Shown one piece after another: positions 7,359 through 30,478 of a stretch of 36,765 nucleotides of DNA (the stretch's first letter is position 1; each line of letters opens with the position of its first letter). Origin of the DNA: Sphaerochaeta sp. Phil3 (lineage in GTDB: Bacteria; Spirochaetota; Spirochaetia; Sphaerochaetales; Sphaerochaetaceae); contig MSGT01000008.1 in NCBI GenBank assembly GCA_001940825.1, positions 1 to 36,765 of the forward strand, read 5' to 3'. The translations under genes and the position numbers were made by a program. Under the pieces are notes generated by a model. The model did no database searches and was not told the origin of the DNA. It saw nothing but the letters and a program-made list of their open reading frames with translations.

Positions 7359-7433
7359 ATGTCGGTTTAATGTCGGTTTAATGTCGGTTTAATGTCGGTT
7401 TAATGTCGGTTTAATTGACATTTTGTCGGTTTA
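7359..7433 (+). repeat. Tandem array of an 11-bp unit (ATGTCGGTTTA), five perfect copies plus one imperfect
   Basis: Perfect head-to-tail copies occupy 7359-7369, 7370-7380, 7381-7391, 7392-7402 and 7403-7413. After a 9-bp break a sixth copy with one mismatch (TTGTCGGTTTA) lies at 7423-7433, between the -35 and -10 of the next gene. The 11-bp period is close to one helical turn, so bound protein would lie on one DNA face. This looks like a regulator-binding array, most simply for the product of the downstream gene; that is inference. It is not a CRISPR array because there are no spacers. Confidence 0.9.
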
Positions 7434-7442
7434 TGGTAAACT
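7415..7442 (+). promoter_or_regulatory. Promoter of the AlbA_2 regulator gene, embedded in the repeat array
   Basis: TTGACA (7415-7420, perfect -35), 16 bp, TAAACT (7437-7442), then six bases to the ATG at 7449. The spacer contains the sixth repeat copy, so a protein bound there would block RNA polymerase. The predicted transcript starts at the ATG. Confidence 0.55.
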
Positions 7443-7448
7443 TCCATC

Positions 7449-8795
7449 ATGGAAACACCAATGAAACATGAATTCGTAGAATCAGAGAAAGTAGAACTCA
7501 AGTCGAAGTATACAGATGCCATAGCAAGAAGCGTGGTAGCATTCCTCAACACAGAAGGCGGACAGGTTTTCATTGGCGTGGACGACAACGGCAATGTCGT
7601 TGGAATACCAAACGTTGATGACACGCTTAAGAAACTGTCTGATCTCATAACCGTTCAGATAGAGCCTTCACCGCAGGATATCATAGACATAAACCTCAAG
7701 CTCATAGAAGGAAAGTATGTGATAGCCCTCAATGTCACAAAAGGTCCTTCTGGAATCTATTGCATCAAGAAATACGGATACTCCACGACAGGATGCCTTA
7801 TGAGGATTGGGTCAACCAACAGGGAAATGACAACCACCCAAATAAGGGTAAGGTATGAAAAGACCTTTGCAGACAACGAAAAGATGCTGATAGTTCCTTC
7901 AAAATATGGGGACATATCCTTCAGAACTCTCAAGGTCTACTACTCTGAAAAAGGCTTACACCTTGATGACAGCTCATTCGAAGTGAACATGAACCTAAGA
8001 ACAGACTCAGGACGATACAACCTTCTTGCAGAACTCCTTTCCGATAGGAACGATATACCTCTTATCTTCGTCAAGTTCAGAGGGTTGGACAAATCGTCCA
8101 TATCTGAAAGGAACGACTACGGCCACACCTGTATACTATTGGCGTATGAAAAGATAAAGAACAGGCTCATATCAGAGAACATATGTACGACAGACACCAC
8201 TGTAAGACCTAGAAAGGACACATATCTGTACGATATGGACTGTGTAGACGAAGCAGTGATAAACGCCATAGTACACAACGATTGGACGCAGACGGAACCT
8301 CTCTTTTCCATGTTCGAAGACAGAATCGAGATATTCTCGCATGGAGGACTTCCAAACGGTCTTACAAAGGAGCTCTTCTTCGAAGGAGTCAGCAAACCAA
8401 GAAACACTACGCTCATGAGGATATTCATGAACATGGAGGTAACCGAGCATACCGGCCACGGAATCCCAACGATAATCAAGAAGTATGGAAAGGAAGTCTT
8501 CGATATAGGGGATGACTACATAAAATGCACCATTCCATTCAATAGTGAAGTAATGGACAATAAACCACAAACTCAAACCACAGTTGCCTCGAACAACGTT
8601 GAAGACATCTCAAAGACTGAAAAAGGAATTCTTGGACTGCTTGTTTCAAACAACGTAGAGACAGCCGACTCAATGGCTGAACATCTATCCGTCACTAAGC
8701 GAACCATAGAAAGGGCTCTGAAATCACTTCAGGACAAAGGCTACATAAGAAGAGTTGGGTCAAAGCGTGCCGGCTCTTGGCTTGTAATAAAGTAA
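7449..8795 (+). CDS. AlbA_2 (Schlafen-like) / HATPase_c_4 putative transcriptional regulator
   Basis: Putative ATP-dependent DNA-binding regulator of the COG2865-like group, 448 residues. Residues about 8-125 form an AlbA_2 domain (VELKSKYTDAI, FLNTEGGQVFIGVDDNG). A GHKL-type HATPase_c_4 segment lies at about 260-360 (EAVINAIVHNDW with the N-box Asn; TGHGIPTI near 335). The C-terminus (about 393-448) is a winged helix-turn-helix (MAEHLSVTKRTIERALKSL). Biological targets of this family are poorly known; antiviral roles have been proposed for some AlbA_2 proteins. The gene follows an 11-bp repeat array that overlaps its promoter, which suggests autoregulation. There is no Shine-Dalgarno; the ATG at 7449 lies 6 nt after the -10. 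An alternative ATG four codons in is possible. A broken relative sits at 28815-30327. Confidence 0.85.
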   Translation: METPMKHEFVESEKVELKSKYTDAIARSVVAFLNTEGGQVFIGVDDNGNVVGIPNVDDTLKKLSDLITVQIEPSPQDIIDINLKLIEGKYVIALNVTKGPSGIYCIKKYGYSTTGCLMRIGSTNREMTTTQIRVRYEKTFADNEKMLIVPSKYGDISFRTLKVYYSEKGLHLDDSSFEVNMNLRTDSGRYNLLAELLSDRNDIPLIFVKFRGLDKSSISERNDYGHTCILLAYEKIKNRLISENICTTDTTVRPRKDTYLYDMDCVDEAVINAIVHNDWTQTEPLFSMFEDRIEIFSHGGLPNGLTKELFFEGVSKPRNTTLMRIFMNMEVTEHTGHGIPTIIKKYGKEVFDIGDDYIKCTIPFNSEVMDNKPQTQTTVASNNVEDISKTEKGILGLLVSNNVETADSMAEHLSVTKRTIERALKSLQDKGYIRRVGSKRAGSWLVIK

Positions 8796-28748: not shown

Positions 28749-28814
28749 ACGAATTTCATCCAACGTAACGAAATTTCCTTTTCTTGTTTCCCTTTGATGA
28801 TGTATCATGCTTGT

Positions 28815-30327
28815 ATGAAAGATGTTGTTGATATTCTCTCAAAATATAAGCTTGAAGCTAACTCTGAAAACTGCATGGTCGAATGTAAAGAAGCCTCAAA
28901 TCTTATTCCTAAATCCATGTGGGAGACGTACTCTGCTTTTGCCAATACTTCTGGTGGTTGTATTTTCCTTGGAGTAAGAGAGAATTAAGACAAAACGTAT
29001 ACTGTCACGGGAGTGTCTTCCCCTGCGAAGGTTCAGAGTGATATTTGGTCAATTCTTGGGAACAAGAATAAGGTTAGCCTGAATATTCTAAACGATGAAA
29101 ACATCTCTGTTGTAAAAGATGTATCAGGGAAAGATGTTGTAATAGTTCAAGTTCCGGAGGCGGAGGATTCTCAGAAACCAATATATCTTAATTGGAAAAT
29201 TGATATGGCCTTTGTGAGGAAGGGCGAGGGGGATCAAAAAGTTGATAACGATCTTCTTCAAGCGATGCTTAGGAATGCATCATCTTCTGTAGATTCTGGT
29301 ATGCAGAAGTTATATTCAATCAATGATATTGATCCTATTTCATTGGCTGCATTCAAGAGTATTGTTTCTTCTAGATACGAAGAAAAAAAACTATGCGGGT
29401 CTCTCTGATATGCAGTTTCTAACGGAGATTGGTTTGTTCAGAACAGATCGGACTGATGGACTTACTTATCCAACTTTGGGTGCAATTCTTATGTTGGGCA
29501 AATACAACTCGATTAGGGAATTGATACCATCTTTTCATCTTGATTACATAGATTACAGGGACACTGTTGAGAGATGGAGCGACAGGGTTGCTTCAGACGA
29601 ACCAAGCCTACGGGAAATGAATCTCTATAATTTTTTCTCTATTGTCAATGATAAACTAACTGCAACGGTAAAGACCCCATTCAGTTTGGGTTCTGATAAT
29701 GTCAGAATTGACAAATCCCTTGAGGTCTCTTTAAGAGAGGCTCTTGTTAATACGTTAGTTCACGCGGATTATCTGACTCCAAAAGAGTATGTAAAAATAG
29801 AGGTATACAAAAGCTGGTATTCTTTCAAAAATCCAGGAAAAATGCTCATCAGTGAAGCTGAATACGTCTGTGGAGGAGTTTCAAAGGTAAGAAATGAAAT
29901 ACTGATGAAATGTTTCAGACTTTTAGGGTTGTCCGAGAGACAGGGAATGGGCGGAAAGGAAATTCTAAAAGCAGCGATGAATCTCAAGTTTAGGCGTCCA
30001 GAAATAAAGACATCGTTCTTCTATACGTCTCTTGTCTTTTGGAAAACAGACATTGTAGATTCTCATACGGAACTTACAGAAACCGCAAAGAAAGTGTTTG
30101 CCTATATAATCAACAATGGGACTTCTTCCAGAAAGGATATTGCAAAAGCAACAGGTATTCCTGATAGACAAATTAGGAGTGCTTTGGAATCCTTGATGGC
30201 TTGTAGTCTTGTAAATTTGACAGGAAAAGGACCCGCTACTCGTTATTGTCTCCATGAACGGTCAATGGAGAAGAAGGCCCAGATTCAGAAGGGCATATAT
30301 GAGTTGATTAAGTTCCTGAGAATATAG
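28815..30327 (+). pseudogene. Broken AlbA_2 / HATPase_c_4 regulator gene (stop plus frameshift)
   Basis: Second member of the AlbA_2-HATPase_c_4 family. The AlbA_2 domain (ENCMVECKEAS, FANTSGGCIFLGVREN) is interrupted by an in-frame TAA at 28986-28988. The same frame then continues as good coding sequence (DKTYTVTGVSSPAKVQ) to an A8 run (29383-29390). There the reading frame moves by +1, consistent with one extra A, and continues to 30327. The remainder has the HATPase-like segment (LREALVNTLVHADY, FKNPG, GMGGKEI) and a C-terminal winged helix (KDIATGIPDRQIRSALESL-like). The ATG at 28815 is chosen because TATCAT lies 6 nt before it. Composition is more AT-rich than the neighbours. Two independent lesions argue for decay, not a sequencing slip, though the A8 alone could be an error or slippage site. 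Confidence 0.82.
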
Positions 30328-30330
30328 AAG

Positions 30331-30386
30331 AAATCTCGCATTTTTTATTTCTATATAAAAAATTAAATCTCGCACTAACCTCGCAC
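30331..30386 (+). repeat. Direct repeats AAATCTCGCA flanking an AT inverted repeat
   Basis: AAATCTCGCA occurs at 30331-30340 and 30365-30374, with a further CTCGCAC at about 30380-30386. Between the first two lies ATTTTTTAT/ATAAAAAAT (30340-30348 / 30355-30363). Located just after the broken AlbA_2 gene; role unknown. Confidence 0.6.
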
Positions 30387-30442: not shown

Positions 30443-30478
30443 TAACCCCACCTGTCGGTTTAAAAACAAGTGGGGTTA
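30443..30478. repeat. 9-bp inverted repeat with the TGTCGGTTTA motif in its loop
   Basis: TAACCCCAC (30443-30451) and GTGGGGTTA (30470-30478) are perfect complements. The 18-nt loop contains TGTCGGTTTA (30453-30462), ten of the 11 bases of the tandem unit found at 7359-7413. No U-tract follows on either strand, so it is not a standard terminator. It sits in the 194-bp gap between the AlbA_2 pseudogene and pepD, which otherwise holds only the AAATCTCGCA repeats. Confidence 0.75.

Follow-up and report, generated by a model that had tools for sequence, protein, structure and literature searches.

A putative private operator array at the promoter of a Schlafen-type gene, with matching copies in the coding linkers of its relatives

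A 36,765-nucleotide stretch of the genome of Sphaerochaeta sp. Phil3 (contig MSGT01000008.1, positions 1 to 36,765; hereafter the window) contains a gene for a 448-residue protein that joins an SLFN_AlbA_2 domain, a HATPase_c_4 domain and a winged helix, and an array of 11-base-pair (bp) tandem repeats is interwoven with its promoter. An initial annotation proposed that these repeats form an operator for the protein's own winged helix and that the protein may be an ATP-sensitive autoregulator. The promoter and gene comprise the following features:

7359 to 7413, + strand: five perfect head-to-tail 11-bp units, ATGTCGGTTTA (sequence inspection, Tandem Repeats Finder, genome pattern search)
7415 to 7420, + strand: −35 hexamer, TTGACA (sequence inspection, promoter scan)
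7424 to 7433, + strand: sixth unit, TGTCGGTTTA, inside the −35/−10 spacer (sequence inspection; like placement in relatives L073 and L124)
7437 to 7442, + strand: −10 hexamer, TAAACT, with TG ahead (promoter scan, from which a start point near 7449 is predicted)
7449 to 8795, + strand: gene for the 448-residue protein with SLFN_AlbA_2, HATPase_c_4 and winged helix domains (profile search, structure model)

The five perfect copies reported beside a perfect −35 hexamer are indeed present, separated from it by a lone A at 7414. A further copy does occupy the spacer, as had been described, but calling it imperfect was too harsh: its 10-base core is exact, and the leading A, changed to T, is the sole difference. 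This copy begins 20 bp after the fifth, and the site-to-site spacings in the promoter are 11, 11, 11, 11 and 20 bp. The sites thus lie over the gene's own core promoter, in which TTGACA and a weak −10 are 16 bp apart by promoter scan. Transcription probably starts near 7449, the A of the ATG; the messenger RNA (mRNA) would therefore probably be leaderless, and the array copies would lie upstream of it, outside the transcript.

The array stands out both in the window and in the genome. Tandem Repeats Finder scored it at 116 (period 11, 100% matches) and the next best array in the window at 57, and its strict tandem score of 47 compares with 1,829 control windows from related loci of which only one reached at least 25. 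Allowing up to three mismatches across two adjacent units, we found no second site in the 2,356,532-bp assembly, and a backwards control pattern gave 0 matches. The single unit has seven exact sites in the genome, six of them at the array, which is the only cluster among unit matches in the 2.36-megabase genome. The seventh, at 30453, falls within the loop of a terminator-like hairpin, and we dismissed it as chance.

The annotation had suggested looking for repeats upstream of homologous genes, and this check, which was run on relatives sampled from whole genomes plus 80 named loci of genome contigs, came out in its favour: many relatives bear private 10- to 12-bp repeats shortly before the start, and the sequence of the repeat usually differs between genes. 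With arrays defined by a strict tandem score of 12 or more, 22 of 87 family promoters had one, compared with 8 of 1,829 control windows and 3 of 107 other promoters. Among these last three, one belongs to a further family member, whose word TTTTCTGGTTG and helix KTEGSIRH are as in L101 and L103. Promoter words in other relatives include AGTAGCAAATAA (three copies; L006, a paralogue in the window genome), TTATTGCTTC (L018), TGCCGAAGAG (four copies; L036), AAGTAAGGAAT (three copies; L111) and AATGAACTT (five copies; L117). The usual layout has at least two sites 11 to 12 bp apart, followed 20 to 22 bp on by one that lies between −35 and −10, which would place the sites on roughly one helix face and over the core promoter, fitting repression. 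At 1190 to 1339 in L117, tandem CCTAACAAA-type repeats precede a gene for an unrelated AAA ATPase, which matches ATPase_2/AAA_14; another family may have a like arrangement.

If each array serves the protein encoded beside it, the repeated word should follow the DNA-binding helix, and two further features of the window gene matter here:

8697 to 8735, + strand: recognition helix, residues 417 to 429, KRTIERALKSLQD (model, alignment; residue E421 tracks the operator)
8544 to 8612, + strand: linker DNA, residues 366 to 388, with degenerate operator copies (AACGTTGAAGAC) where relatives hold two to five in frame

Words and helices pair across the family: TGTCGGTT occurs with RTIER, TGGCGTAA with RSVQR and TGGCAAAA with RTVSR. 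The middle of the site varies with residue 421, reading CGG where this is E, CG[TC]A for Q, CAAA for S and CATA for A. The more alike two recognition helices are, the more alike are their operators, also once similarity in the rest of the protein is corrected for (partial r=0.28, p=5e-4). Control in trans is common among promoters, and the array might in principle be bound by another, unlinked regulator such as a global repressor or a nucleoid protein. Three observations make this very unlikely in our view. The word is private to the gene in the window genome and in eight other genomes, where exact ATGTCGGTTTR sites lie nearly all at a family gene; paralogues within one genome (L005 and L006) have unrelated words; and the word tracks the gene's own recognition helix even across phyla, L006 and L107 both having GYVRK and AGTAGCAAATAA.

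The same words recur inside the genes. Relatives repeat the promoter word in frame, every 12 bp, in the DNA that codes for a disordered linker before the winged helix. In the orthologue L013 (58% identical) the linker consists of five AAT GTC GGT TTG copies (AATGTCGGTTTG five times), which encode NVGL five times and carry the window's own word. Most relatives at 48 to 64% identity have promoter copies plus two to five linker copies, and one word is used at both places in L042 to L056, L065, L069, L074, L088, L100 and L121. Where both kinds of site are present, the distance from promoter to linker is about 1.18 kilobases (among eight genomes). In the window gene itself the in-frame linker copies have decayed, and the six promoter copies remain; promoter copies are more numerous in genes that have no more than one linker copy than in the others (4.7 versus 3.0, P=0.0013, on loose-pattern counts). 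Some further loci were fetched once this hypothesis had been formed, and they agreed with expectation in part. L124 repeats a single word at the promoter, has it in the spacer (within TTGACATTTTGTCGGT) and carries it four times in the linker; L136, again with a single word at both places, shares with L138 the word TGGGTRATA at promoter and in linker.

Because comparing shared 9-mers between promoter and whole coding sequence was too noisy, we relied on windowed and codon-redraw tests. The linker was the best match in the coding sequence to the gene's own promoter in 20 of 69 genes, where 4.0 were expected (P=1.4e-9). With the peptide held fixed and codons redrawn from each gene's own usage, 10 of 67 genes gave p≤0.01 (0.67 expected). 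Of the valines in linker NVG, 67 of 68 are encoded by GTC, compared with 82 of 398 elsewhere in the same genes, and linker leucine is TTG in 32 of 36, compared with 55 of 324. Along the gene, word density peaks at −100 to −1 and in the linker and nowhere else, and it is flat when words are swapped between classes. At the level of sequence, this codon choice shows a constraint on the DNA.

These results bear on a simpler view of the linker, in which the repeats serve the protein as peptide repeats and resemble the promoter word only by chance. Four-residue units such as NVGL, GKND, TPQV and LGDK do recur, and some subfamilies have no visible promoter partner. Yet the peptide shifts whenever the promoter word shifts: TGTCGGTTT goes with NVGL, TGTCGGTAT with NVGI, TGTCGGTGT with NVGV, TGTCCGTTT with NVRL, TGTCGGAAA with VGNN, TGGCGYAAT with GAIS and TGGCAAAAA with GKND. 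Codon choice matches the promoter even with the peptide fixed, the linker is fixed for uncommon synonymous codons, and in L073 the TGTCGG cores are kept while the residues between them vary. We think an incidental likeness unlikely. L073 (1340 to 2380), from the window's genus, is without an AlbA_2 domain and has four promoter and four linker TGTCGG copies.

The array might also be a slippage-prone satellite devoid of regulatory role, or a phase-variation tract whose copy number tunes promoter strength. With five perfect copies, the array looks recently expanded, and copy number varies among relatives; in L073 the promoter has three spaced copies plus a copy in the spacer. However, distant relatives still have the same word at two separate positions, under codon constraint, the spacer copy is retained in L073 and L124, and an 11-bp unit added or lost upstream of the −35 leaves the −35/−10 spacing unaltered. 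Such an origin seems to us highly improbable as the whole explanation, and copy-number variation on top of operator function is possible.

Control could instead act on RNA. Schlafen AlbA_2 domains bind and cut RNA, and linker copies lie within the mRNA, so that the domain might recognise the repeated word in the gene's own transcript. But the window copies lie upstream of the predicted transcription start, both orientations of the word occur (in L101 and L103 the linker copy is reverse-complementary to the promoter word), and the word tracks the winged helix. We give this explanation only a very slim chance.

Instead, the arrays, their two locations, their covariation with the helix, the codon constraint and the privacy of the words lead us to regard it as highly probable that the array is a private operator through which a predicted Schlafen-type effector is repressed by its own winged helix, acting at promoter and intragenic sites. 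The C-terminal winged helix (recognition helix K417–D429) would bind the word of about 10 bp, and copies 11 bp apart before the −35, together with the spacer copy 20 bp on, would align several protomers along the DNA, covering the core promoter and making the gene self-repressing. Most close relatives would have their operator split between the promoter and two to five linker copies of 12-bp (four-codon) period about 1.2 kilobases downstream, and these intragenic copies would most likely add repression via looping or local loading. The two kinds of copy seem able to replace each other: the window gene has six at the promoter and none in the linker, L013 none and five. Since word, linker DNA and recognition helix evolve together, each gene would keep a self-recognition pair. 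The earlier proposal of an autoregulator with its own operator is thus supported by sequence comparison, and that of binding on one face in part: the promoter spacings of 11 and 20 to 22 bp fit it, but the linker copies are 12 bp apart.

Several points weigh against this interpretation. Only about a quarter of family promoters pass the strict tandem test, and start codons and promoters of relatives were set by simple rules. The promoter of L013 has no copies at all; several distant relatives, including later-fetched loci, have linker arrays without promoter copies, or neither; linker arrays in distant subfamilies of the TPQV, TAQD and LGDK types lack a promoter partner; and linker copies in L145 differ at a third codon position. 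Moreover, the classes and words were first spotted by eye, before testing, and the relatives are not independent, so that the P values overstate the strength of the evidence.

We nevertheless consider it likely, on balance, that the linker is first of all a DNA element: an in-frame, four-codon operator array for the protein's own winged helix, which would co-evolve with the recognition helix and could stand in for the promoter operator or add to it. On this reading the family would amount to a natural winged-helix recognition code with many matched pairs.

Two groups of linkers differ from this pattern. Those of L009, L035, L039, L020, L022, L130, L133 and L150 are near-perfect 12-bp in-frame arrays (TPQV, TAQD, TPEV, LGDK, NEGI and EGVT) for which no promoter partner was found; some of these genes sit close behind another gene, and the arrays could be operators or peptide repeats. 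The linkers of L127 and L131 contain a repeated palindromic AGTCCGCGGACT, a site shape unlike the direct repeats elsewhere.

The remaining domains of the window protein are these:

7479 to 7832, + strand: SLFN_AlbA_2 domain, residues 11 to 128 (profile match; E11, E16 and K18 conserved)
8304 to 8489, + strand: HATPase_c_4 domain, residues 286 to 347 (profile match)

The SLFN_AlbA_2, HATPase_c_4 and C-terminal helix-turn-helix domains follow in that order (COG2865 type), scoring 73.8, 56.5 and 29.6 bits, all above cut-off, and the winged helix and ATPase domain had been named correctly from the outset. In an NCBIfam search the helix-turn-helix matches were below threshold only. The AlphaFold model has a mean pLDDT (predicted local distance difference test) of 88.5; linker residues 374 to 384 are predicted to be disordered, and it is this model that places the recognition helix at K417–D429. 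The best Foldseek match in the PDB is the uncharacterised bacterial protein 3lmm; human Schlafens (SLFN) come next, and the winged helix is similar to domains of the MarR and ArsR types. The GHKL-type ATP-binding motifs are conserved: across the wider ATPase region, at least 94% of 39 relatives keep N272, H276, G299–G300 and T335–G338. The acidic residues E11 and E16 of the AlbA_2 domain are conserved across relatives, and the product is predicted to be a Schlafen-type ribonuclease (RNase) effector; such a cargo would explain tight self-control.

The gene stands alone amid housekeeping genes. The four neighbours tested by profile encode iPGM, PfkB, Jag and YidC, and no bacteriophage exclusion (BREX) or other defence gene was found among them; a search with defence profiles (PADLOC) gave weak domain-level matches only. 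Phage and plasmid collections held only distant relatives, at less than 60% identity, which makes the gene untypical of phage or plasmid. A second, broken family member lies at 28750 to 30327 in the window: its AlbA_2 part has an in-frame stop and a frame change, and it continues as an open HATPase_c_4 and winged-helix frame at 29323 to 30327. Three CTCGCA words follow at 30335 to 30385, directly past its stop.

Prokaryotic Schlafen RNases whose C-terminal part comprises a histidine-kinase-like ATPase and a winged helix have been described as auxiliary effectors near BREX loci (PMC12839542). Their three-domain order equals that of the window protein, whereas the window gene lies among housekeeping genes and its RNase activity is a prediction; the parts of that description available to us include no operator. 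More broadly, no operator for the SLFN_AlbA_2/HATPase_c_4 family was found in the open papers covered, in line with the annotation's remark that no described one was known.

Two better-known arrangements offer parallels. The proteins that bind the plasmid centromeres ParR/parC and TubR/tubC also repress their own promoters, and these systems likewise have 11- to 12-bp direct repeats at the promoter of the DNA-binding protein's gene and multimeric loading. The window system differs in being chromosomal, in its Schlafen and GHKL-type domains and, in relatives, in the copies inside the coding linker; no partner filament nucleoside triphosphatase gene was found beside the repeats, the four neighbours tested being metabolic or membrane-biogenesis genes. 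The lac and gal operons have intragenic auxiliary operators and looping, and so resemble the family in combining a promoter operator with a second one in downstream coding sequence. Unlike theirs, the putative intragenic operator here falls within the gene for the regulator itself: it occupies the linker codons as an in-frame array of 12-bp period and changes along with the recognition helix.

If this interpretation is right, the array would be the first cis-element for a widespread, barely studied class of Schlafen-like proteins, and the odd four-residue repeats of their linkers would be explained as DNA signals and not as peptide signals. The many natural helix–operator pairs would make winged-helix specificity directly readable and testable. 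And if these proteins are suicidal defence RNases, the array may be the safety catch that holds them off.
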